A stretch of 64,000 nt of DNA. Origin: Acidobacteriaceae bacterium (lineage in GTDB: Bacteria > Acidobacteriota > Terriglobia > Terriglobales > Acidobacteriaceae). Position numbers and translations under genes: made by a program. Of this stretch, positions 7,634-20,625 are shown piece by piece. Under the pieces are notes generated by a model that ran no database searches, had not been told where the DNA came from, and saw only the letters and a list, made by a program, of their open reading frames with translations. The stretch lies in assembly GCA_030041435.1 (NCBI GenBank), contig JASHNW010000130.1, positions 1 to 64,000 on the forward strand. The letters run 5' to 3'. The first letter of the stretch is position 1. The number at the start of each line of letters is the position of its first letter.

Positions 7634-9952
7634 TCAGAAAGTGGTTCTGAGCCGCAGCATATAGCTTCGCGAAGGGCCGATGGCGTTGCCGGAAAACAAG
7701 CCGCCGAAATCGATCACATCCAGCACGCTGGTCAGGTTCTCCCCGTCGGCCTGGAATTGCACGTCGATTCTCTCCGAACGATAGACCTCCGCACCCGCCG
7801 ACGCACTTACCTGGAAGGAAGGATCGATGCGCCCGCGGGCGAAGTTGATGCGATCGAGGACCTGCCGGCCATACTCGGCTAGCACGGTGGAGGGACTACC
7901 GTCGAATTCAAAGGGAAGGCCGGTGTCATACTGAGCTCCGCCGGCGGCCCAAAATCGCGGACGGATCTGATAACGCCCTCGTCCTCGAACCGTATTCCGC
8001 TGATCCTGGGAATCCGGAAAATGTCCCGTCAGCTGCTCTTCTGCCTGGGTGGCATCGTCGCCCAGAAAGAGGCCGCCGGTAACCGGATTCCAGGCATTGC
8101 CAACCTCCCACGAGTAGCTTACGAAGCCGGAGAAGCGGCGCCAGTCGGGAACTTCGACCTTACCCTCCGCGCCATAGACGATCGCTTTGCGAAAGGCGAT
8201 GGGAAAGCTGATGGTGGTGTTATCGATTTGGTCGTCGTCAGCGTAGTTGTCTGCGAACCTGCGGAAGTAGTTCGCATCCAGCTTGATCTGCCGATGGAAC
8301 GCTTTGCTCAGGCCCCCTTCGTAGTAGTCCCCCACCGAAGGCCGGACGGGCAGGCGAAGGAAGGCAGCCGGATCGAGCGATGCCACCTCGGTCGAACTGG
8401 AGAGAAGGATGTTTTCAAAAGACGGCGTCTGGAAGACGCGGTCGTATGAGAAATGCGCCACGAGGCCGGCAGATGGGAAGTAGCGGGAGATGGAAAAGCG
8501 CGGCTCCACGGCCTGCTTGTTCAGCAACAGCTGATAATGATCCCAGCGAAGACCGGCCGAGAAGGTCCACGTTTGGAGCCGCGCCAGGTCCTGCACGAAG
8601 GCGGACTGTTCGAGGTCAGGGCGCTGGCCGGCGAAGGCAAAGGCGAGCGAGGTGCCCTGGTCAAACTGGGTTGGGTCGGTGATGACGTAACTGAAATCTT
8701 CGTGCAGAAAGATGTTGTCCGATTCAACGCCGAATTTCCACTCATTCCGCCTCCCCTCGGTCGTGACCGTTGCCTTGAAATAGCCTTCGCGAAAGCGGTT
8801 GTGCTGAAACACCTCGACCGGAGTCGATTGCGCACTGGAGTTGAAGTTGTTCGCGTTGTCGCGGACCATGCCGCGATAATCCGCCAGAGTACGCGCGGAG
8901 AAAGTGTGCTGGTACGAGGCGGAGCCCATGGTTTCGAAGTTGTCTGCCGTCTGGCGCTGGCCGGCCGCCTCCTGCACCTGCTCGTTGGGAAGATCGAACC
9001 GGGAGAGCTCGTGACGCACACTTACGCTGAACCGGTCCGCGGGGCTGAAGTCGCGGTCGCAGCGGCCTGAAAAGTCAGCCAGCGTGCCGGTGTTGGAGTA
9101 GTTCTGCGGGACGACCGGATTGAGATAGCGATCTGTCCGGCTGCCGCTGGCGCTGCCGCCAAGAGCGTTCCTGCCCCATGCATATTGCCCCTTCGCGAAC
9201 CCGCTGGCGGTGTCGAAGCTGCCTCCGGCTAAGATCACGTCGCCGTGCAATCCGGCCTGCCAGTTCTGAGCGGTGTTCAATTCAACGACACCGCCCATTT
9301 TCCGCCCATATTCGGCGGCAAACCCCGCCGTGTAGATGCTCATGGACTGCACGTCGTCGGCTTCGATCTCCGGGCCAAAGCTGGGCGAGCGATTGTCGGT
9401 GAGAGGGATTCCATCGATCACAAACTGCGTCTGGTATTCGGAACCGCGCGGATGCAGGACCGCATTGCCTTCGTAGAGCCATCCGGGCTGCGAGTTCACC
9501 AGGTCCTGCAGGGAGCGGCCGGGGATGGAGCCGACCCGGTGCTGGATGAAGGACGCGCCCAGCTGGACGACCGACCCCGGCTCCTCAGGGTCGATGAGAG
9601 TGTTGGCGGCTTTGACGGTGACGGTTTGCTTCACCGTCGGCAGCTTCAACCGGATGAGCTGATGCAAGGGCAGCCGGGACTGGATGGTTAGATCCTGCGC
9701 GACCGGGGCAAATCCCGGCTGCTCGACGGTCAGGCGATATATACCGTACGGCAGCCATTGAACAACCAACTCGCCGTCGAGGTTCGTTTCGAGATTCGAT
9801 CGATACTGATTGGCCTCGCTGAGCAGAGAAACCGTGGTTTGCATTCCACGGCCGGAGGGGCCGGTTACGGTGACGTGCAGTTCGCCGCTGTTGGCCTGGC
9901 ACCATGCCGACGGTGCGCAGAGCAGCAGAAACAATGTCAGCCGCTTCATCAC
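7634..9952 (-). CDS. TonB-dependent receptor with carboxypeptidase-regulatory N-terminal domain (Oar-like)
   Basis: A 772-aa outer-membrane receptor. It has a signal peptide ending near AWCQA, a CarboxypepD_reg-like beta-sandwich (about 22-105), a plug domain (about 120-230, with TQFVIDGIPL and AEYGRKMGGVVELNT), then a beta-barrel ending in the aromatic signature RLRTTF. Such receptors take up siderophores, glycans or peptides by TonB energy. It is shorter than many acidobacterial Oar-like proteins of 1000 or more residues. It is transcribed away from the SDR gene, with 265 bp between them. The substrate is unknown. Confidence 0.88.
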   Translation of the reverse strand: MMKRLTLFLLLCAPSAWCQANSGELHVTVTGPSGRGMQTTVSLLSEANQYRSNLETNLDGELVVQWLPYGIYRLTVEQPGFAPVAQDLTIQSRLPLHQLIRLKLPTVKQTVTVKAANTLIDPEEPGSVVQLGASFIQHRVGSIPGRSLQDLVNSQPGWLYEGNAVLHPRGSEYQTQFVIDGIPLTDNRSPSFGPEIEADDVQSMSIYTAGFAAEYGRKMGGVVELNTAQNWQAGLHGDVILAGGSFDTASGFAKGQYAWGRNALGGSASGSRTDRYLNPVVPQNYSNTGTLADFSGRCDRDFSPADRFSVSVRHELSRFDLPNEQVQEAAGQRQTADNFETMGSASYQHTFSARTLADYRGMVRDNANNFNSSAQSTPVEVFQHNRFREGYFKATVTTEGRRNEWKFGVESDNIFLHEDFSYVITDPTQFDQGTSLAFAFAGQRPDLEQSAFVQDLARLQTWTFSAGLRWDHYQLLLNKQAVEPRFSISRYFPSAGLVAHFSYDRVFQTPSFENILLSSSTEVASLDPAAFLRLPVRPSVGDYYEGGLSKAFHRQIKLDANYFRRFADNYADDDQIDNTTISFPIAFRKAIVYGAEGKVEVPDWRRFSGFVSYSWEVGNAWNPVTGGLFLGDDATQAEEQLTGHFPDSQDQRNTVRGRGRYQIRPRFWAAGGAQYDTGLPFEFDGSPSTVLAEYGRQVLDRINFARGRIDPSFQVSASAGAEVYRSERIDVQFQADGENLTSVLDVIDFGGLFSGNAIGPSRSYMLRLRTTF

Positions 9953-10217
9953 GAATCGCCCTCAGGGTTATCGCTGTGTCCTCGAAAGCTCCGGCTCCTC
10001 TGGAGGCTGGGCCATGCAAGACCTCGAATCCAATGTACTCACCGCGGACGACCCTGGCCAACAGTCTGCCGGCGACGATACGCGGAGCGGACGAGCCTCC
10101 CGTTGAGAGCGACTGAGCTTTGGTAAAGGACGGAGGCCGGGCGCGATCGCCGGAGCGGACGGAGCGCGACCGTGGCCGGTAAGCTGGGTGGAGTCCGAGT
10201 GCGGAGAGGGAATGCGA

Positions 10218-11000
10218 ATGGGGAGTCAGAAACGGGCAGCAGTTGTTACCGGAGGGGCGCAGGGGATCGGGCGGCGAACGGCGGAGCTGCTGGCGGAGCG
10301 CGGGTTTCGCATTGCGATTGTCGACCTGCTGGAGCCGAAAGCGACGGTGCAGGCAATCGAGACGCGCGGCGGCATTGCGTTCGGGTTCGCCGGCGATGTG
10401 ACACGGGAAGACGTTGTCGAGGAGTTTGCGCGGAAGGTATTCGGGCGGTATCAGCGGGTCGATGTGCTGGTAAACAACGCCGGAATCAGCCTGATTCGCG
10501 CGGCAGAGGATACGACACCGAGCGAATACCGGCGTGTGCTCGAGGTGAATCTTGTGGGGCCGTTTCTGCTGGCGCGGGCATTCGGGCGAATGATGCTGGA
10601 GGCGCGACGCGGGTCGATCATCAATGTTGCGTCGATTGCAGGCCTTGTAGCGGTTGCGGATCGTGCAGCCTACAACACGTCGAAGCACGGGCTGGTGGGG
10701 CTCACGCGAACCCTGGCCGCTGAATGGGGAGGGCGCGGGGTACGGGTGAATGCCGTTTGTCCGGGTTGGGTCAAAACCGAGATGGATGCCGCAGATCAGG
10801 CGGCCGGCAGCTATACCGATCCTGACATTACCCAGCGGGTGCCGATGGGACGCTTCGCGAAGCCGGAGGATGTGGCGCGGGCGATTGCGTTCCTGGCGGA
10901 CGACGAGGAGAGCGGCTTTGTGAACGGCCATACGCTCACCGTGGATGGAGGCTGGTCGTCGGATGGGAGCTGGGAGTCAGTGCGGCTGAGCAAGCGCTGA
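10218..11000 (+). CDS. SDR family oxidoreductase
   Basis: A classical short-chain dehydrogenase/reductase of 260 aa. It has the Rossmann motif TGGAQGIG (11-18), NNAG, and catalytic Ser139, Tyr152 and Lys156 (YNTSK). An Asp at the end of strand 2 (IVDLL) points to NAD(H) preference. The C-terminus ends VDGGWSSDGS, typical of 3-oxoacyl-ACP reductase or sugar-dehydrogenase-like SDRs. I placed the start at the ATG at 10218, which has GGAGAGGG about 7 nt upstream; the ATG at 10212 is too close to that site. The substrate is not determinable. Confidence 0.85.
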   Translation: MGSQKRAAVVTGGAQGIGRRTAELLAERGFRIAIVDLLEPKATVQAIETRGGIAFGFAGDVTREDVVEEFARKVFGRYQRVDVLVNNAGISLIRAAEDTTPSEYRRVLEVNLVGPFLLARAFGRMMLEARRGSIINVASIAGLVAVADRAAYNTSKHGLVGLTRTLAAEWGGRGVRVNAVCPGWVKTEMDAADQAAGSYTDPDITQRVPMGRFAKPEDVARAIAFLADDEESGFVNGHTLTVDGGWSSDGSWESVRLSKR

Positions 11001-11405: not shown

Positions 11406-13874
11406 ATGATGACGTTGCGGGTCAAGGCTCTTATTGGCGTGGTGGTCGCAGGAGCCATTGCGAGTTTGTGTCTGGTTCCCCGACTGCCTCCTGAGCATTG
11501 GACTTACTTCTTTGTCTACCTGGCCGCCATCCTGCTCAGTTCCGGGATGAAGGTTGCGCTGCCCAAACGCGACGGGACGATGTCTGCCAACTTCCCGTTC
11601 ATCTTTCTGGGCATTGTGCAACTTTCGCCGTTACAGGCGGTGCTGCTGGCGGCATCGAGCGTCATTGCGCAGTGTCGAATCCGGGTAGTCAAACCTTTCA
11701 CACTCGTACAAATTGTCTTTAATGTAGCCAACGTAACAACGGCCACGGTTCTGGCCACGCTTGTCTATGCGGAGTCGCTGAGACCGCTGCATCACGAGGT
11801 CGCGCCGGCGCTTGCCCTTGCGGCAACAGGTTATTTTCTGGCAAATACCGTCCCTATAGCCCTGGTCATTTCCTGGGACTCGGAAACTGAACCTTTCCGG
11901 CAATGGCGTGAAGAATACCTCTGGTACCTGCCCTTCTATCTGGTTGGCGCCATGCTGGCTGCAGCCGTTAATTTCATCGGCATTATGTTCGGCTGGCTCA
12001 CGTCGCTGCTGCTGATACCGCTGGTCTATATCGTCTATCGCGCTTATTGCGCACAGATGGCCATCGTCCGCGACCGTGAACGGCACATTGTCGAAACTGA
12101 AGCACTGCATCTTCGCACCATCGAAGGGCTGGCGATGGCCATCGAGGCCAAAGATCGCAACACACATCGCCACCTGATGCGAGTGAGAGTCTACGTGTCT
12201 GAGCTGGGAAAGATCCTGGGCCTCGATCCATCGCTCATGAAGGCGCTCCTGACTGCGGCCTTTCTGCACGACATCGGCAAACTGGCTGTCCCGGAACACA
12301 TCATCAACAAGCCCGGCAAGCTCACGCACGAAGAGTTCGAAAAGATGAAGATTCATCCCGTAGTGGGCGCCGACATTCTGGAGCGGGTGCACTTTCCTTA
12401 TCCGGTGGTTCCTATCGTCCGGTCGCATCACGAGGCGTGGGATGGGAGCGGATATCCCGACGGCCTGCGGGGCGAGGAGATTCCAATTGGTGCGCGCATT
12501 CTGACCGTCGTCGACTGTTTCGACGCGCTGGCGTCGGAGCGGCCGTACCGCCGGGCTCTGCCGCTGGACGAAGCCATGACGATGGTTAAAAGCAAGTCCG
12601 GCATCCAGTTCGATCCTGCGATCGTCCGGCTGCTCGAAGCGCGTTATCCCGAGCTCGAAGAACTGGCGCGTCAGCAGATTGAAGAAGTGGAGCCACTGAA
12701 GACGGATTTGTTCATCGAACGCGGCGCCGCGCCAGGCGCAGGATTTGCGCCGGAACCTTCGGCTCAGGCAGCCGCAGGGGTGGCGCAGCATGCTGGATCC
12801 GGCAGCATAGCTGCAGCGATTCACCGCGAGCCGCTTAGCCTGATCGCGGAGGCGAGCCAGGAGGCGAAGGCTATATTCGAGCTGAGCCAGATGCTGGGGA
12901 CATCGCTCGGCGCGCGCGAAATCAGCTCGATGATGTCCATGCGCCTGCAGCCATTGATACCGTTCGATTGCTTTGCGGTGTACCTCAGGCGAGAAACATC
13001 CGTCGCCGCGCAGTATATCGACGGCCGCTGTGCCCGGGCTTTTTCCGCGCAGCCCATCCCCATGGGAGAAGGGCTGTCCGGCTGGGTTGCTGAGAACAGA
13101 CGGCCCATCGTCAACGGCAATCCAACTGTAGAGCCGAATCTGATCGCCGAATGCGGATTGTTTTCCGCACACAGCTCCGCACTCTCGGTTCCGCTCTTCG
13201 ATCTCGGCGGCGACACCTTTGCGGTTGTTACGCTTTATTCCTGCAAACCTGCGGCGTTTACCGACGACCATCTGCGGACCCTGCAGGCAATTGAGTCCCG
13301 ATTCTCGCTCTCCCTGCAAAACGCGATGCGCTTTGAGGCGGCGGAGACCGACGCGAGGGTGGACCGCCTTACCCAGCTTTGGAACACGCAGAGTTTCTTC
13401 CGGCACATCGCCGCGGAAATCGAACGAGTGCAGGTAAATGGCGGGGAATTTGGAGTCGTTGTCTGCGACCTGAATTCCTTCAAGAGCGTCAACGACCGGC
13501 ATGGGCACGCAATCGGCAACGAATTGTTGCGCGCCATTGCCCGGGAATTTCGCTGCTGCTGCGGACCGGCGGATGCCGTTGCCCGCATGGGTGGAGACGA
13601 ATTTGCCTTCCTCTTTTCCTCCCTCAGCCTCGAATCGGCAGACTGGAAGCTGAAGACGCTCGAACAGGGCTTGCAGCGCGCGTGCCACGGCCTGCAGATC
13701 GAAGCCGGCATCTCCGGCAGCATGGGGGTTGCGTTCTGTCCCCGGGACGGTAAGAGTCCGGAAGAGCTGCTGGGCATCGCCGACCGCGGAATGTATCTGC
13801 AGAAGCGCCACTTTTACAGCGCTCATAACAACCGGGAAGCGCCGCCTGTGCTGGCGGGCATTGCAGCATCATGA
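11406..13874 (+). CDS. Membrane HD-GYP / GAF / GGDEF protein (c-di-GMP turnover)
   Basis: An 822-aa multidomain signalling protein. About seven membrane helices (residues 5-215) form a sensor, followed by an HD-GYP phosphodiesterase domain (about 235-415, with HDIGK at 288-292 and GYPDG at 349-353), a GAF domain (about 490-640) and a GGDEF cyclase domain (about 650-815, intact GGDEF at 729-733). It could therefore both degrade and make cyclic di-GMP. The RxxD inhibitory site expected five residues before GGDEF reads GPAD, so product inhibition is probably lost. Its stop overlaps the next start as ATGA, coupling it to an ABC importer. The start is one of two adjacent ATGs, with only a weak ribosome site. 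Confidence 0.9.
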   Translation: MMTLRVKALIGVVVAGAIASLCLVPRLPPEHWTYFFVYLAAILLSSGMKVALPKRDGTMSANFPFIFLGIVQLSPLQAVLLAASSVIAQCRIRVVKPFTLVQIVFNVANVTTATVLATLVYAESLRPLHHEVAPALALAATGYFLANTVPIALVISWDSETEPFRQWREEYLWYLPFYLVGAMLAAAVNFIGIMFGWLTSLLLIPLVYIVYRAYCAQMAIVRDRERHIVETEALHLRTIEGLAMAIEAKDRNTHRHLMRVRVYVSELGKILGLDPSLMKALLTAAFLHDIGKLAVPEHIINKPGKLTHEEFEKMKIHPVVGADILERVHFPYPVVPIVRSHHEAWDGSGYPDGLRGEEIPIGARILTVVDCFDALASERPYRRALPLDEAMTMVKSKSGIQFDPAIVRLLEARYPELEELARQQIEEVEPLKTDLFIERGAAPGAGFAPEPSAQAAAGVAQHAGSGSIAAAIHREPLSLIAEASQEAKAIFELSQMLGTSLGAREISSMMSMRLQPLIPFDCFAVYLRRETSVAAQYIDGRCARAFSAQPIPMGEGLSGWVAENRRPIVNGNPTVEPNLIAECGLFSAHSSALSVPLFDLGGDTFAVVTLYSCKPAAFTDDHLRTLQAIESRFSLSLQNAMRFEAAETDARVDRLTQLWNTQSFFRHIAAEIERVQVNGGEFGVVVCDLNSFKSVNDRHGHAIGNELLRAIAREFRCCCGPADAVARMGGDEFAFLFSSLSLESADWKLKTLEQGLQRACHGLQIEAGISGSMGVAFCPRDGKSPEELLGIADRGMYLQKRHFYSAHNNREAPPVLAGIAAS

Positions 13875-14728
13875 CGGCAGGGGCGGCCGTGCTGCAATGG
13901 CTTGGCCGAACCATCGCCATCGTTCTGCTGGTGATGGCCGGATCCACGGTCCTGGTGCGTTTTGCTCCCGGGTATCTCAGCGATGCCCGCGAGATGGACG
14001 CCCGCTATGCCGATGCGGCGCACGCTGAACTGTCCCAGGAAGCAGCGCGGAGCCGATCGTTGCCGCACATGCTCTCCGCGGAGATCTCCGGATGGGCGCG
14101 AGGGGATGCCGGAATCTCGCGGGAGTACGGAGTTCCTGTATCCGCTCTGATTCTGCCCCGCCTGGCCGTAACCGGCGGTCTGTTGCTGCGATCGATTCTC
14201 CTCGCCTGGACGCTGGCCCTGAGTGCTTCGCTCCTTACCACCGCGGGTCGCAACCCATCGCCGTTCTGGCAGACGCCGGCTACGCTTCTGCTGGCCATAC
14301 CGACGGCCGCTATGGCGACACTTTGCCTGCTGGCGAACAGCGGCGGTCCGGTGCTGGTGATGGCTCTGCTGCTGGCGGCGCGGGACTTCAAATTCCTTCA
14401 TCGCGCCCTGCGCACGGCATGGCTCGATCCGCATGTGCTGCAGGCGCGCGCTCAGGGCCTCAGAGCGCGGCAGGTGCTGCGGGCTCATGTTCTCCCCGCC
14501 ATTGCTCCCCAGCTTGCTGCTCTGGCTTCACTGTCCATCATGACGGCACTGAGCGCGATTGTTCCGGTAGAAGTGATCTTCGATGTGCCGGGACTCGGCC
14601 AGCTGGCCTGGAACGCTGCGCTGAACCGAGATCTTCCTGTGCTGCTGGCGGTGACGATGATCATGGCGCTGGCCGTGGTCATCGGGGGAATGACCCCTGA
14701 TCGCCCGCCGGAGTGGAAGAGCGTATGA
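13871..14728 (+). CDS. ABC transporter permease, DppB/OppB type
   Basis: A 285-aa inner-membrane subunit of an oligopeptide/nickel-type importer. It has an N-terminal helix (about 12-28), a periplasmic segment (about 35-85) and a transmembrane domain (about 95-275) with an EAA-like loop ARAQGLRARQVLRAHVLP that contacts the ATPase. It is somewhat shorter than typical DppB proteins (about 310-340). The start overlaps the stop of the HD-GYP/GGDEF gene (ATGA), and its own stop overlaps the next permease start the same way. Confidence 0.85.
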   Translation: MTAGAAVLQWLGRTIAIVLLVMAGSTVLVRFAPGYLSDAREMDARYADAAHAELSQEAARSRSLPHMLSAEISGWARGDAGISREYGVPVSALILPRLAVTGGLLLRSILLAWTLALSASLLTTAGRNPSPFWQTPATLLLAIPTAAMATLCLLANSGGPVLVMALLLAARDFKFLHRALRTAWLDPHVLQARAQGLRARQVLRAHVLPAIAPQLAALASLSIMTALSAIVPVEVIFDVPGLGQLAWNAALNRDLPVLLAVTMIMALAVVIGGMTPDRPPEWKSV

Positions 14729-15513
14729 AGCTTCGTCCCTCAGCCGCGTGGCTGCTTGCCGTCACGATTCTGGCCGCTGCCATTGTTCTCGCGCGACCAG
14801 GCGCGAGCTACTCGCATCAGGATCGTGCCGAGCCGCTTGCCGCCGCATCGACCCTCCATCCGGCAGGCACCGATGCGCTCGGTCGCGATCGCCTGACGCG
14901 CGTGGCGGCTGCTCTTCTCCTGAGCCTCGTTGGCGCCACTGCTGCGGCGGCGGTAACCACCCTGGCAGCAGCCGGCGTTGGCACGCTCGCAGCCTTCGCC
15001 CCCGCATCCATTGGCTGGCCCGCCATGTTGCTGTGCGATGTCTTTCTCGCCCTGCCCTGGATGTTCCTGCTGCTGATGGTTCGATCGGCTCTCCCTTTGA
15101 CCACTTCTCCCGCGAACTCGGCTGCAATTACGTTCCTGGTCCTTGCGGCGTTGGGGTGGCCGGCCTGTGCGCGGGCTGTCTATCGAGGCGCCCTCAGCCT
15201 GAAACGTTCTGCATGGATGCTCCACGCACACGCCGCAGGACTGCGCGGCAGGCAAATTGTCCGCTATGTGCTTCCTAACCTGATCCCGCTGCTGCTGCCC
15301 CAGTTCCTCATTTGTGTGCCGACGTTCGTCATTGCAGAAGCTAACCTGGGCGCGCTCGGCCTCGGCATCGGTGAACCGCTGCCGTCATGGGGCGGTATGT
15401 TACTCGAACTGGATAACTCCGCAATGCTGCTGCAAACCCGATGGGTCTATTTCCCCGTGGCTTTGCTGATTGCCGTTCTGCTTCTGCTGGAAGCTGTCGC
15501 GGTGGAGGCCTGA
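14725..15513 (+). CDS. ABC transporter permease, DppC/OppC type
   Basis: A 262-aa second permease of the importer. It has an N-terminal helix, the short conserved segment HPAGTDALGRD typical of OppC/DppC, and five further membrane segments including the EAA-like loop HAHAAGLRGRQIVRYVLPN. The C-terminal part (NLGALGLGIGEPLPSWGGML) is the usual DppC ending. I chose the ATG at 14725, which forms an ATGA overlap with the upstream stop and has GGAAGAG upstream, rather than the earlier in-frame GTG at 14713. Confidence 0.87.
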   Translation: MKLRPSAAWLLAVTILAAAIVLARPGASYSHQDRAEPLAAASTLHPAGTDALGRDRLTRVAAALLLSLVGATAAAAVTTLAAAGVGTLAAFAPASIGWPAMLLCDVFLALPWMFLLLMVRSALPLTTSPANSAAITFLVLAALGWPACARAVYRGALSLKRSAWMLHAHAAGLRGRQIVRYVLPNLIPLLLPQFLICVPTFVIAEANLGALGLGIGEPLPSWGGMLLELDNSAMLLQTRWVYFPVALLIAVLLLLEAVAVEA

Positions 15514-15517
15514 GCCG

Positions 15518-17152
15518 ATGCGCAACTCCATTCGTCTCTGTGCCTTTGCCCTGGCGATTCTGGCCGCGGCGCCAGCGAAGACCTGTCTGGCTCAGGCTGC
15601 GCCCCGGATGCCCGGGGAACTGGCGTGGACCATCGGCTATGACCCGAAAACCTTCGATCCGGCAATAGTGGACGACCAGGAATCGGAGCAGGTGCGGTAC
15701 CTGACTGCGGGCGTGCTGCTCCGTTTCAATCGACTGACACAGAAGGTCGAGCCCGAACTGGCAGAGACCTGGAGCGTTTCGGCGAATGGCAGAACTCTGA
15801 CCTTCAGGCTGCGCCTGGGCCTGCAGTTCTCCGATGGCAGCAGCCTCACTGCGCGGGACGCCGCCTGGTCGATCCGGCGTGTTCTGCTGCCGTCGACCCA
15901 TGCACCGGTTGCCGAGGAATTTGTGTCTCCCGGTGAAGTCACGGTCGAGACGCCGGATGCGAGAACCGTAATCGTTCATTTGCCCAAACGAGTAGTTGGC
16001 ATCGGCAAGGTTTTTGACGAGATTGCCATTGAACCGGCTGGCCGGCCCAGCCAGGGCCGCATCACCTCCGGCCCGTTCTTCGTATCTGACTACCATCGCT
16101 CTCTGTATGTGCGGCTGCGCCGCAACCCTCACTTTTATGCGAGGGACGCCGCCGGCGTGGAACTTCCTTATGCTTCCGGCGTACGTCTTGATGTTCTCGA
16201 GAATCCGGAACAGGAGATTCGGCTGTTCCTGCGCGGCGCATACGACGTGATCGACGACCTCCCGCCGGATTACTTCGAACTTTTGAGACGAAAGGATCCG
16301 TCCACCGTACGGGACCTGGGACCATCGCTGAATACCGAACAGATGTGGTTCAATCAGGCGCCGGATGCTCCCATTCCCGCATGGGAAAAAGCCTGGTTCC
16401 GGAATCGGGCATTTCGCATTGCTGTCTCGCAGGCCGTCCATCGCGCCGATCTGGCACGCATCGCATACGAAGGACACGCAACCCCTGCCTACAGCTTCAT
16501 CTCGCCGGCCAACTCCATCTGGTACAACCGCAGCCTGTCCGCGCCGCATACCGATGTCGCCGCCGCGAAGGCTGAACTGGCTGCGGCCGGCTTCCATCTG
16601 AGCGGATCGGTTCTCGAAGATGCGGCGGGACACACGGTTAAGTTTTCTATTCTCACCAACGCGGGTAACGCCGCTCGATTGAAGATGGCGACCCTGATTC
16701 AACAGGACCTCGCAGCCCTGGGCATGCAGGTGACCGTCGTGACGATGGATTTTCCCGCCCTGGTCGAGCGTCTGATGCACACCCAGGACTATGAAGCTTG
16801 CCTGCTGGGACTGGAAAACGTCGACCCCGATCCGAACACCATGATGAACATCTGGCTCAGCTCCTCGCCCAATCACCAGTGGGACCCATCTGAAAAGGAG
16901 CCCGCAACCGCGTGGGAGGCCGAGATCGATCGCCTGATGAACGAGCAGGCCGGCGCCTTGATGAGCTCGGAGCGGAAGCAGGCTGTCGATCGCGTGCAGC
17001 AGATCGTTGCCGACCAGCAGCCGTTCATTTACCTGGTGTATCCAAACGTTCTGGTGGCCGTTTCACCCCGACTACAAGGCGTGCAACCCGCCGTGCTCGA
17101 ACCGGCGCTGACGTGGAATGTCGAGGACCTCCGGCTCAGGGAGGCGCGATGA
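15518..17152 (+). CDS. ABC transporter solute-binding protein, family 5 (DppA/OppA type)
   Basis: A 544-aa extracytoplasmic binding protein. The signal peptide is residues 1-25 (cleavage after CLAQA), followed by the family-5 fold: WTIGYDPKTFDPA near the N-terminus, LAETWSVSANGRTLTFRLR, and the C-terminal domain with WFRNRAFRIAVSQAVHR. It binds peptides or similar ligands for the two permeases encoded upstream. The ATG at 15518 is 4 bp after the permease stop; the earlier in-frame codon at 15470 lies inside the permease gene and would block the signal peptide. Its stop overlaps the ATPase start. Confidence 0.88.
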   Translation: MRNSIRLCAFALAILAAAPAKTCLAQAAPRMPGELAWTIGYDPKTFDPAIVDDQESEQVRYLTAGVLLRFNRLTQKVEPELAETWSVSANGRTLTFRLRLGLQFSDGSSLTARDAAWSIRRVLLPSTHAPVAEEFVSPGEVTVETPDARTVIVHLPKRVVGIGKVFDEIAIEPAGRPSQGRITSGPFFVSDYHRSLYVRLRRNPHFYARDAAGVELPYASGVRLDVLENPEQEIRLFLRGAYDVIDDLPPDYFELLRRKDPSTVRDLGPSLNTEQMWFNQAPDAPIPAWEKAWFRNRAFRIAVSQAVHRADLARIAYEGHATPAYSFISPANSIWYNRSLSAPHTDVAAAKAELAAAGFHLSGSVLEDAAGHTVKFSILTNAGNAARLKMATLIQQDLAALGMQVTVVTMDFPALVERLMHTQDYEACLLGLENVDPDPNTMMNIWLSSSPNHQWDPSEKEPATAWEAEIDRLMNEQAGALMSSERKQAVDRVQQIVADQQPFIYLVYPNVLVAVSPRLQGVQPAVLEPALTWNVEDLRLREAR

Positions 17153-18003
17153 TCCACGAAACGCTTCTGCGGGTCAGCCTGACGGCTGGATACTCCACCA
17201 GACGAGTCCTGCACGAGATTCGCTTTGAGCTGCAGAGAGGCGAAGTGCTGGGACTTGTGGGAACGAGTGGCGCAGGAAAAAGCACGCTGGTGCTTTCTCT
17301 GCTTGGCCTGCTTCCCTGGCGCGGGGGGCGCGTGAGGGGCGAGGTTGAGCTGAACGGCAGAAATTTGCTCGCTCTTTCCGAACGCAATCTGCGCAGGCTC
17401 CGCGGACGCGAGGTTGCTCTGATACCGCAAAGCCCGATGAGCGCGCTCAACTCTGCGATCACTCTGGAAAGACATTTCGACGAGGCCTGGAAAGCCCACG
17501 AGACGCCTGGGCGTGGCGCTTTGGCGAGCAGGCTGCAGCAGTTGCTCGCCGAGGTGCAACTGCCTTGCAATGCAGAATTCCTGCGCCGGCGCCCCTCGCA
17601 AATCAGCGTCGGACAGGCCCAGCGGGTGCTCATTGCCCTGGCGCTGTTACACCAGCCTGCACTCATCATTGCAGACGAGCCTACCAGCGCGCTGGATCCG
17701 GTGACCCAGACGCAGATCGTCAACTTGCTCAGGAGACTCAATCGGCGGCATGGCGTCACGCTGCTCTATATCTCGCATGACCTGGTTTCCGTCCTGCAAC
17801 TGTGCGATCGCCTCGCTGTTCTGAGTGAGGGCGCCATCGTGGAGAGTCTCCCGGTCGACGAGCTCAGCGAGGCGCGTCACGAAGCGACGCTCGCTCTCCT
17901 GGGAGCTCTGCCCGTTCCTGCCGAAACTCTGCTGGCTTTTCGCGACCGGTCAACCCGAGACGCCATCGACCTCAGCGGGGCAGCTAATTACCAAAGACAG
18001 TAA
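17149..18003 (+). CDS. ABC transporter ATP-binding protein, DppD/OppD type
   Basis: A 284-aa ATPase powering the importer. It has Walker A GTSGAGKST (38-46), Walker B LIIADE (172-177), D-loop SALD and switch His210 (YISHDL). The ABC signature is SVGQ (153-156) rather than LSGGQ, an unusual second position. Its ATGA start overlaps the binding-protein stop. Canonical oligopeptide importers carry two ATPases (D and F); only this one is present here, so it may work as a homodimer or borrow a partner from elsewhere in the genome. The C-terminus lacks the typical OppD Cys-rich extension. Confidence 0.87.
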   Translation: MIHETLLRVSLTAGYSTRRVLHEIRFELQRGEVLGLVGTSGAGKSTLVLSLLGLLPWRGGRVRGEVELNGRNLLALSERNLRRLRGREVALIPQSPMSALNSAITLERHFDEAWKAHETPGRGALASRLQQLLAEVQLPCNAEFLRRRPSQISVGQAQRVLIALALLHQPALIIADEPTSALDPVTQTQIVNLLRRLNRRHGVTLLYISHDLVSVLQLCDRLAVLSEGAIVESLPVDELSEARHEATLALLGALPVPAETLLAFRDRSTRDAIDLSGAANYQRQ

Positions 18004-18190: not shown

Positions 18191-20020
18191 ATGCCGCGGC
18201 CACGTTTCCATCTGCCAGCAGTTCTCGGCTTGTCTTTCGCTATGGCAGCCACCACCTTCGCGGGCGCTCAAACCGCGAGCAGCAAAATCTCGCCAGATCT
18301 GGCGGCGGAACCGCCCAATGCCAATGTGCAGGTGATCGTCCAGTACTACAACCCTCCGTCGACGGTCGAGACCGGACTGCTCGGACTGCTGGGCGGCGTG
18401 TTGAAGCTGGTTCTCGGGCCAATCGACGCCATTGTCACCGATATCCTTCCCAGCCAGCTGAATTCGATTGCCGCGGATTCGAATGTTAAATACATTTCGT
18501 TAGATCGTGTCGTAGGCGCGCGGCAGGCAGTCACGATCACAGGGGCGGAATATACGACCGAACCCATCAACGCTCCCGCCGTGTGGCAACAGGGCTATGA
18601 AGGCACCAACATCGGCGTCGCCGTGATTGACAGCGGCATCACACCCGTTCCGGACCTGAACACCAATTCCCAAACTCTCTCCCTGGGCTTGTCGCAGCTG
18701 CTGTCCTCGCTCACTGAAGTCGCTCCCGGGAGAACCGGACGAATCGTCTACAGCCAAAACTTTGTTCAGGGTCAGAACGACGCATTGGATCATTACGGGC
18801 ACGGCACGCACGTCGCCGGCCTGATCGCCGGCAACGGTGCGCTCTCAAGCGGCAAACAGTATTTCAGAACGTTCAGCGGATCCGCTCCAAACGCCAACAT
18901 CATCAACCTGCGCGCGCTCGACGAGAACGGAGAAGGGACGGATTCATCGGTAATCGCCGCAATTGACGAGGCAATTTCCCTCCAGAACACCTATAACATC
19001 CGCGTCATCAACCTCTCGCTTGGCCGCGCAATCTACGAAAGCTACACTCTCGATCCGCTCTGTCAGGCGGTCGAAAAGGCGTGGAAGTCAGGCATCGTCG
19101 TAGTGGTGGCCGCAGGCAACGATGGCCGCAACCAGAATCTCAATCCGGAAGGCTACGGCACCATCGATGCGCCGGGCAATGATCCCTATGTCATCACCGT
19201 CGGCGCCATGAATACGATGGAAACGCCCGCCATCAATGACGACATCATTGCAAGTTATAGCTCCAAGGGACCATCCTTTATCGACCACTTCGTGAAGCCG
19301 GATATCGTAGCGCCTGGCAACCTGGTCACCAGCCTCGAATTTGCTCAGGATCCGCTGGCAACAGATAATCCGTCCTTTTACACGTGGTATTCGTTCTACC
19401 AGACAAACGGCGCCGAAACGCCTTCGCAGTACTACTTTCCCCTCAGCGGCACAAGCATGGCGACCGGGGTCACCAGCGGAGCTGTCGCCGACCTGCTGCA
19501 GGCAGCGCCGCGGCTTACTCCTGACGAGGTGAAAGCTCTTCTGATGGTCAACGGGGACCGCAGTTACTTCCCGGCAACCAGCAGCGTAACTGCCAACGGC
19601 ACCGTTTACAACGCTAACTACGATGTCTTTACCGTCGGGGCCGGATATCTGGACATCGCGAAGACGATCAGCGCTGCTTTGGTGAACGGCGGATCTGTCC
19701 CGGCCGGGACCGCAATGTCGCCAATCGCTTCTTATAATGCGGTCACCGGGAATACAACTGCAGTAACCGATCCGAGCGCCCTCTGGACCGCGACCGGCCC
19801 GTGGTCGGCATCGAGCGTCTATGGAGGCCGGGCTTTTATTTCCGGCGATACTTCGGCCGCATTGTGGGGAACAACTCCCCTGTGGGGTGGGAGCGACCCT
19901 GACGGTTACACGGCACTCTGGGGCAAGACTGCACTCTGGGGCAAGAGCACTCCGGAAGCCGAAACAGCTCTCTGGGGTAAATCGGGGACATCCGGAGAAG
20001 CAGTGCCGCTCGAATATTAG
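18191..20020 (+). CDS. Secreted subtilisin-like S8 serine protease with C-terminal LWG repeats
   Basis: A 609-aa extracellular protease. The signal peptide is residues 1-26 (TTFAGAQ), with an inhibitor-like N-terminal region (about 27-125) and the S8 domain carrying the Asp147 (VIDSGI), His204 (HGTHVAG) and Ser422 (GTSMA) triad. The C-terminal 70 residues contain five copies of an [AP]LWG motif, including a perfect 18-bp tandem at 19913-19948. The ATG at 18191 has a ribosome site (GAGGGGT) and precedes the signal peptide directly. The gene stands alone, followed by a clear terminator. The LWG tail resembles WG-repeat tails of other secreted S8 proteases; its role is unknown. Confidence 0.9.
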   Translation: MPRPRFHLPAVLGLSFAMAATTFAGAQTASSKISPDLAAEPPNANVQVIVQYYNPPSTVETGLLGLLGGVLKLVLGPIDAIVTDILPSQLNSIAADSNVKYISLDRVVGARQAVTITGAEYTTEPINAPAVWQQGYEGTNIGVAVIDSGITPVPDLNTNSQTLSLGLSQLLSSLTEVAPGRTGRIVYSQNFVQGQNDALDHYGHGTHVAGLIAGNGALSSGKQYFRTFSGSAPNANIINLRALDENGEGTDSSVIAAIDEAISLQNTYNIRVINLSLGRAIYESYTLDPLCQAVEKAWKSGIVVVVAAGNDGRNQNLNPEGYGTIDAPGNDPYVITVGAMNTMETPAINDDIIASYSSKGPSFIDHFVKPDIVAPGNLVTSLEFAQDPLATDNPSFYTWYSFYQTNGAETPSQYYFPLSGTSMATGVTSGAVADLLQAAPRLTPDEVKALLMVNGDRSYFPATSSVTANGTVYNANYDVFTVGAGYLDIAKTISAALVNGGSVPAGTAMSPIASYNAVTGNTTAVTDPSALWTATGPWSASSVYGGRAFISGDTSAALWGTTPLWGGSDPDGYTALWGKTALWGKSTPEAETALWGKSGTSGEAVPLEY

Positions 20021-20277: not shown

Positions 20278-20625
20278 TCAGATCTTATCGAGGAGCTTTT
20301 GCAGAACCGCGGCTTCGTTGTGCTGCTGGTCTCTGGCGCCATAGATTAACGTGACCGTTCCCCTGGCCGCCTCGTGTTTTAAGAGCGAGAGTTGCTCCTT
20401 ATTCTTCCTGAGTTCCTTCCGGTAGCGCGTCTGGAACTCTGGCCATTTTGCAGGATCGTGGGCAAACCACTTGCGAAGTTCCGTGCTCGGCGCCACTTCC
20501 TTTAGCCAAAGATCGATTTTCGCCTTGTCCTTCGTCAGACCGCGCGGCCAAAGCCGGTCCACCAGGATTCGAGTTCCGTCTTCTTTGTCCGGACGTTCGT
20601 AAGCCCGTTTGATCCGAATATTCAT
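20278..20625 (-). CDS. DUF488 family protein
   Basis: A 115-aa cytoplasmic protein of the DUF488 family. It begins [12 protein letters not shown] and contains the family landmarks [17 protein letters not shown], a W-rich middle ([12 protein letters not shown]) and TLIYGARD near the C-terminus. The function is unknown; members are usually single small genes. A GAGAGG ribosome site is present upstream of the start. It converges on the S8 protease terminator. Confidence 0.85.

Follow-up and report, generated by a model that had tools for sequence, protein, structure and literature searches.

Evidence for a conserved gene module of Acidobacteriota joining an HD-GYP protein with a predicted S-component-like sensor domain, an Opp-type importer and a Trp-repeat subtilase

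A stretch of 64,000 nucleotides from an Acidobacteriaceae bacterium (contig JASHNW010000130.1; hereafter the window, and its source the window genome) carries a gene for a membrane protein with HD-GYP, GAF and GGDEF domains, followed by genes for an importer of the Opp/Dpp type and for an S8 subtilase with a tail of Trp-containing hexapeptide repeats. Comparison of genomes makes it almost certain that the HD-GYP sensor, the Opp-type importer and the Trp-repeat subtilase constitute a conserved module of Acidobacteriota, which reaches beyond the five-gene operon formed by the HD-GYP and importer genes. The N-terminal domain of the HD-GYP protein is predicted at high confidence to adopt the six-helix-core fold of the S-components, the substrate-binding subunits of energy-coupling factor (ECF) transporters, and the composition of the cluster suggests a protease-fed sensing circuit with an output in cyclic di-GMP (c-di-GMP).

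Co-inheritance and arrangement of the module

Of 150 genomes sampled from the order, 37 have a match to the HD-GYP protein and 32 to the subtilase (both at E up to 1e-60); the binding protein of the importer is matched in 48 (E up to 1e-30), with identities of at least 41% in 33 of them and of at most 39% in 15. All 33 genomes with a close binding protein and all 32 with the subtilase fall within the 37 that have the HD-GYP protein. Neither the subtilase nor a close binding protein was detected at the same thresholds in any of the 113 genomes lacking an HD-GYP match; a distant binding protein (39% identity or less) occurs in 12 of these. Two of the 37 HD-GYP matches are partial, that of genome G133 covering the HD part only and that of G148 lacking the GGDEF part. 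The HD-GYP gene and the gene of the close binding protein lie within a few kb of each other on one contig in 31 of the 33 genomes, as read by hand from their coordinates. The distribution is patchy within genus g4 (4 members with an HD-GYP match, 13 listed without), as for a module that is retained or lost as a whole. In the window genome, a single MASE9 domain and a single Trp-repeat subtilase occur, and the two other HD_5 genes of that genome (L232, L233) have no matches to the partner models in their surroundings.

Gene neighbourhoods were compared in 40 regions (L064–L103) and 80 further loci (L104–L183), all collected via the HD-GYP or the binding-protein gene; the latter set comprises 80 of a longer list of matches and, save for one locus labelled Nevskia soli, carries the label of Acidobacteriota or its groups. 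De-duplication left 109 sensor/HD-GYP genes, 60 of them with at least 5 kb of upstream and at least 8 kb of downstream sequence. The OppC-like permease, the binding protein and the ATPase are all encoded downstream and on the same strand in 34 of these 60 full-flank loci, and hence the arrangement is more than chance. A subtilase gene is found within 8 kb in 34 loci and a sigma54 regulator within 5 kb in 33; in 15 loci, a sensor domain standing alone is encoded within 9 kb. Silvibacterium bohemicum S15, a cultured soil bacterium, has all six genes of the window set (L105). The importer and the subtilase tend to occur together, the latter being present in 31 of the 35 HD-GYP loci with a binding protein vs. 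3 of the 25 without. The layout varies: the HD-GYP gene comes first in the window, the importer and subtilase genes precede it in L091 and L092, and the two parts diverge, with two regulators between them, in L075, L078, and L079. In one locus (L070:16785–18242, + strand) a second c-di-GMP protein, with ETR1_N, PAS and GGDEF domains, is encoded immediately 3' of the subtilase gene.

The first-pass annotation of the window, which was made from the sequence alone, had proposed a five-gene operon placing import and c-di-GMP under joint control, and had made this dependent on conservation of the gene order in relatives. That order is conserved, in the 34 loci counted above. Since the gene set is both conserved and co-inherited, it is very probable that import is linked to the control of c-di-GMP, and to that extent the proposal stands; the five genes do not, however, form the complete unit, as the Trp-repeat subtilase and often a sigma54 regulator or a stand-alone sensor domain also belong to it.

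In the window itself, open reading frames and Pfam matches bear out the described order of an HD-GYP gene, two permeases, a binding protein and an ATPase, all on the + strand. The sensor/HD-GYP/GAF/GGDEF protein (822 amino acids; 11406–13874), for which HD-GYP residues in an alignment of 22 rows provide further evidence, comprises the MASE9-like membrane sensor domain with the predicted S-component fold (11406–12113), the HD-GYP domain (Pfam HD_5; 12132–12623), a GAF domain (GAF_2, residues 521–630; 12966–13295) and a GGDEF domain (residues 651–801; 13356–13808). It is followed by an OppB-like and an OppC-like permease (13871–14728 and 14725–15513, both BPD_transp_1), a solute-binding protein of family 5 (15518–17152; SBP_bac_5) and a single OppD/NikD-like ATPase (17149–18003; ABC_tran). 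The reported junctions were likewise found in the sequence: three of the four are 4-bp ATGA overlaps (HD-GYP gene with OppB-like permease, OppB-like with OppC-like permease, binding protein with ATPase) and the fourth, between the OppC-like permease and the binding protein, is a 4-bp gap. The subtilase gene (18191–20020, + strand) starts with an ATG 187 bp 3' of the ATPase gene and is not tightly coupled to it. Genes for a TonB-receptor-like protein (7634–9952, − strand), a short-chain dehydrogenase (10188–11000, + strand) and a DUF488 protein (20278–20625, − strand) flank the locus and lie outside the conserved set in the inspected loci.

The sensor domain, its subtilase partner and its outputs

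By sequence, the sensor domain is assigned to Pfam MASE9, with 26.8 bits for the whole window protein and 28.1 bits for the domain alone, just over the cut-off of 24.3; the same family is matched in 56 of 77 relatives at E 0.1. No solved structure matches the domain by sequence. The structural model (residues 1–236, 77 sequences) has a mean predicted local distance difference test score (pLDDT) of 94.7 and a predicted template modelling score (pTM) of 0.90, and contains an extra helix (residues 4–23) preceding the core. The best Foldseek match in the PDB is TmRibU (E 2e-3). In a second fold comparison, ECF substrate-binding subunits, some of them recognized by entry title, fill the first 22 places at Z scores of 14.4 to 9.8; two metal-transporter entries among them we take to be NikM. 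Lnt (Z 8.4) and MreD (Z 7.5) come next. Single relatives show weak matches to Pfam ECF families, one at E 8.7e-4, below the cut-off, and one at E 0.0056 in 1 of the 77.

The domain does not appear to be an S-component of a transporter proper. The AXXXA motif that serves the ECF module is absent from the window protein, and it occurs anywhere in the corresponding 25-residue stretch in only 17 of the 77 relatives, at no fixed position. The 5TMR-LYT family (PF07694) is not among the 19 Pfam families matched by any of the 77 members at E 0.1. A sorting enzyme was considered as well and rejected, as neither Cys nor His is among the residues that are invariant or nearly so.

A search starting from the subtilase, which avoids the bias of loci gathered via the HD-GYP or binding-protein gene, placed a sensor-domain gene near 42 of 47 subtilases, the window being excluded. 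These comprise a stand-alone domain within 1 kb (19 cases), an HD-GYP fusion within 1 kb (10) and an HD-GYP fusion within 8 kb (13). The stand-alone domain overlaps the subtilase gene by 4 bp in L220, L221, and L222, all from one genus. In another locus the sensor domain is fused to a PAS-HisKA-HATPase histidine kinase (L246:433–2400, − strand), beside a Trp-repeat subtilase and a regulator; this copy was found by our own profile, Pfam MASE9 being silent. Thus, the subtilase can be retained where the output differs, and it therefore goes with the sensor domain, which is tied to it at least as strongly as to the importer. Fusions to hybrid histidine kinases, with no subtilase in the stretch, were observed in L249:8803–11097 and L250:6892–10371 (both + strand). 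A gene with two tandem sensor domains and no output domain (L245:3553–5211, − strand) overlaps that of a Trp-repeat subtilase, and one Trp-repeat subtilase without a sensor-domain gene lies beside REC-HD-GYP and GAF-GGDEF-EAL genes (L227:524–7167).

In the HD-GYP proteins themselves, hydrolysis is the constant, putative output, to judge by motif conservation. HHExxDGxGYP is present in all 130 distinct homologues (window protein excluded) and HDIGK in 119 of them; the window protein has both motifs, and the HD-GYP residues are invariant in the 22-row alignment. The closest solved relatives of this part by sequence are a cyclic GMP-AMP (cGAMP) phosphodiesterase and a metal-dependent phosphohydrolase. 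A GGDEF or GGDDF motif was not found in 29 of the 130 homologues, some of which are perhaps cut by contig ends; the window protein retains an intact GGDEF motif and lacks the RxxD site that would precede it.

The sigma54 regulators are not uniform. Of 51 distinct ones (L064–L233), 25 have a PilZ-like C-terminus, as against none of 12 others (L234–L253), a recount that led us to reject PilZ as a constant part of the regulator. Pfam PilZ was detected in four (L075:10673, L081, L083, L124) and in none of nine others scanned. For a regulator acting in trans, the window genome offers 11 sigma54-activator matches to the L081 protein, all ending before its PilZ part and with no orthologue among them. 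The best candidate sigma54 promoter sites exceed base-shuffled sequence only slightly in score, with 8.3 vs. 7.0 (out of 14) upstream of the HD-GYP genes and 8.3 vs. 6.7 upstream of the subtilase genes, and strong sites are few. An HD-GYP paralogue with a C-terminal PilZ domain of its own was observed in L101:7974–10778 (+ strand), with neither importer nor subtilase nearby.

The subtilase tail, the importer and loci of other classes

The Asp-His-Ser triad is invariant in 28 of 28 subtilases, and the window copy has an intact triad; domain scans and the triad alignment used a frame from 18188, one codon before the ATG. In the model, the prodomain and catalytic domain resemble Tk-SP (Z 44.7). 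The tail (approximately 19770–20000 in the window) has pLDDT below 50 over residues 535–610, and for this reason no structure is claimed for it; it is predicted to be disordered. Its composition is distinctive: at least four Trp lie within the last 160 residues in 86 of 89 distinct copies, two of the three exceptions being cut by contig ends and one containing a run of N, and Trp makes up 8.0% of the last 100 residues vs. 0.8% of the part before the last 160. Of 670 intervals between successive Trp residues, 419 span 6 positions and 118 span 12 (537 in total), as in a hexapeptide repeat. Many tails repeat a single flavour, e.g., TALWGA, SVVWGT, or NVMWGS, with xALWGK in the window and IIWGD or IAWSD in other classes. 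Pairs of tails from the same genome (n = 17) have a mean similarity of 0.47 vs. 0.37 for 1018 other pairs; when controls of equal catalytic identity are used (14 pairs), same-genome similarity lies at a mean quantile of 0.58.

The importer has the make-up of the Opp/Dpp type, namely two permeases, a binding protein of family 5 and an ATPase, and may carry peptides. The first-pass description of it as peptide-type is a family assignment (SBP_bac_5, Opp/Dpp type). The importer proteins stay below the equivalog cut-off of every NCBIfam transporter model shown, and annotation therefore gives no substrate. The solved relatives of the binding protein include binders of oligopeptides, heme, nickel, alpha-galactosides, and chitin oligosaccharides; the top match is AppA in the profile search and AapF in the single-sequence search. 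At the position that we take to hold the acidic residue of DppA for the peptide amino group, 10 of 10 relatives are non-acidic; 9 of 10 have an acidic residue one column further on, and a shift of the alignment by one residue would change the result.

Across the phylum, the sensor-domain profile matches 113 of 392 genomes. Nine loci of other classes (L234–L242) were chosen for adjacency of sensor-domain and binding-protein matches and therefore demonstrate recurrence of the set, not its frequency. All nine have a binding protein and an OppC-like permease on one strand and, divergently, a subtilase followed by a sensor/HD-GYP/GAF protein; a sigma54 regulator comes next in seven, and the contig end is near in the remaining two. 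In one of them the regulator, an example of the other-class type, has a TPR region at its N-terminus instead of PilZ (L239:13402–16212, + strand), and the subtilase frame has an HTH_17 match near its start (L239:9195–11195, + strand), either a fusion or a start set too far upstream. A search of plasmids yielded one weak sensor-domain match, in an HD-GYP protein of a Natranaerobius thermophilus plasmid (L267:4998–6095), a few kb from a gene annotated as a serine protease. Related subtilases occur in 14 plasmid records, a count that does not consider the type of tail.

A proposed circuit, its alternatives and known systems

We propose that the subtilase would act outside the inner membrane and make small products, possibly including pieces of its own tail. 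These would bind the S-component-fold receptor domain, and ligand binding would change the HD-GYP activity and with it the level of c-di-GMP. Uptake of the same products by the binding protein and importer would serve nutrition or terminate the signal. Where relatives encode a sigma54 regulator next to the module, part of the output may be transcriptional, and c-di-GMP could act back on those regulators that carry PilZ (25 of 51 in L064–L233). We give this model as a whole, in which the ligand, the direction of the effect and the role of the importer are inferred, a probability of roughly 0.4. In a narrower form, which we consider unlikely, the protease would free its own tandem Trp hexapeptides as a self-contained peptide signal, to be read by the receptor controlling c-di-GMP (or a histidine kinase in some relatives) and cleared or recycled by the importer.

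Several observations weigh against the proposed circuit. No Foldseek match of the sensor domain reached E 0.001, and helical bundles may by chance reach Z scores such as those above, according to a caveat of the tool; the uniformity of the top list argues against a chance origin. Of the full-flank HD-GYP loci, 10 of 60 lack all three partners (importer, subtilase and regulator) in their vicinity and 12 of 60 have a regulator as the only partner. For 5 of 47 subtilases the retrieved sequence contains no sensor gene, one of these five lying where its contig ends. For the nine loci from other classes, the match to the second permease is weak (20–43 bits in all nine, four passing a later cut) and the ATPase was not detected by our own model. 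The subtilase, with its 187-bp gap, may have its own promoter. A PilZ domain was not found in 26 of the 51 regulators or in 12 of 12 from the second set, which weakens the c-di-GMP feedback part of the model. Finally, convergence of tails within genomes, as expected for one shared signal, is unsupported beyond the matched controls.

This last result fits a scavenging circuit, in which protein from the environment is degraded by the subtilase, the resulting peptides enter through the importer and c-di-GMP is set by the receptor according to the supply of amino acids or peptides, with the tail as a surface anchor or adhesion element and no self-made signal. A secreted protease and a family 5 importer are an ordinary scavenging pair, but such a circuit, somewhat unlikely in our assessment, explains neither the tail hexapeptide kept in 86 of the 89 copies nor the stand-alone sensor domains beside subtilases without an adjoining importer (L219–L224, L228). 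The tail might instead remain intact and dock on the membrane domain, anchoring or gating the protease or being gated by it, so that c-di-GMP would report occupancy by the protease and nothing would be released. The 4-bp overlap of subtilase and stand-alone membrane domain in the single genus mentioned above is compatible with docking, and so is a tail that is predicted to be disordered and is repetitive, like a multivalent binding tail. Docking does not need the importer, however, which co-occurs with the subtilase (31/35 vs. 3/25), and S-component folds are known for small ligands, as described in passages of a review (PMC11109136); we regard it as quite unlikely.

The first-pass idea that the binding protein, with or without its ligand, is a direct co-sensor for the HD-GYP protein, import being secondary, draws on the conserved order from HD-GYP to binding-protein gene and on the use of periplasmic binding folds as c-di-GMP inputs, of which by 2022 only SBP_bac_3 (RmcA) had been studied, as stated in part of one account (PMC8846402). 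It is very unlikely in view of the receptor-type membrane fold of the HD-GYP protein itself, with a short periplasmic part in the model, and of sensor–subtilase pairs without a binding protein nearby (L214–L218). Operons can contain unrelated genes, but all-or-nothing co-inheritance across genera and recurrence of the same set in several layouts make neighbourhood by chance scarcely credible.

Under the proposed circuit, the module gives a large group of HD-GYP proteins a predicted ligand-binding fold, a candidate partner for making the ligand and an importer. To our knowledge, few HD-GYP phosphodiesterases have a known input. Acidobacteriota are abundant in soil and their signalling is little studied; the module would make food sensing or cell-to-cell signalling in this phylum accessible to tests. 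It would also extend the link between S-component transporters and receptors from histidine kinases to c-di-GMP enzymes. The component families are known. In agreement with the first-pass statement, no description of a system with this gene set was found in the open-access papers searched, where we have likewise not seen the combination, the fold assignment for an HD-GYP sensor or the link to a Trp-repeat subtilase; neither a report of the S-component fold in HD-GYP proteins nor a paper on the MASE9 domain was found there.

Among known systems, DppABCDF of E. coli likewise has two BPD_transp_1 permeases, an SBP_bac_5 protein and OppD/NikD-like ATPases, but it uses dppD and dppF where the module has one ATPase, and the importer described here is embedded in a signalling cluster. 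In Gram-positive bacteria, systems with an imported peptide pheromone (Opp with Phr or PapR) combine a protease, a peptide, an Opp-type importer and an intracellular output. The module works alike without being a member of that group; its candidate signal would reside on the protease itself and be read by a membrane receptor. NspS-MbaA of Vibrio pairs a c-di-GMP enzyme with a periplasmic binding fold. The same is described in part of the literature on RmcA of Pseudomonas (PMC8846402). Here, in contrast to both, the binding protein is of family 5 and comes with a full importer, and the HD-GYP enzyme has a membrane receptor domain of its own. The MASE-type c-di-GMP enzymes are related through MASE9, for which the window protein only just passes the Pfam cut-off; what is added here is the S-component-like fold and the set of gene partners. 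A parallel in design is provided by 5TMR sensor histidine kinases such as BtsS and YpdA, which, as described in passages of Partipilo and Slotboom (2024, PMC11109136), share the predicted S-component fold, the extra first helix, a fused signalling output and the lack of a conserved AXXXA motif. The main text of that review, which treats receptors with the S-component fold, does not mention HD-GYP or MASE. In contrast to these kinases, the output of the sensor domain described here is mostly HD-GYP, together with GAF and GGDEF domains, and is coupled to a Trp-repeat subtilase and an importer.

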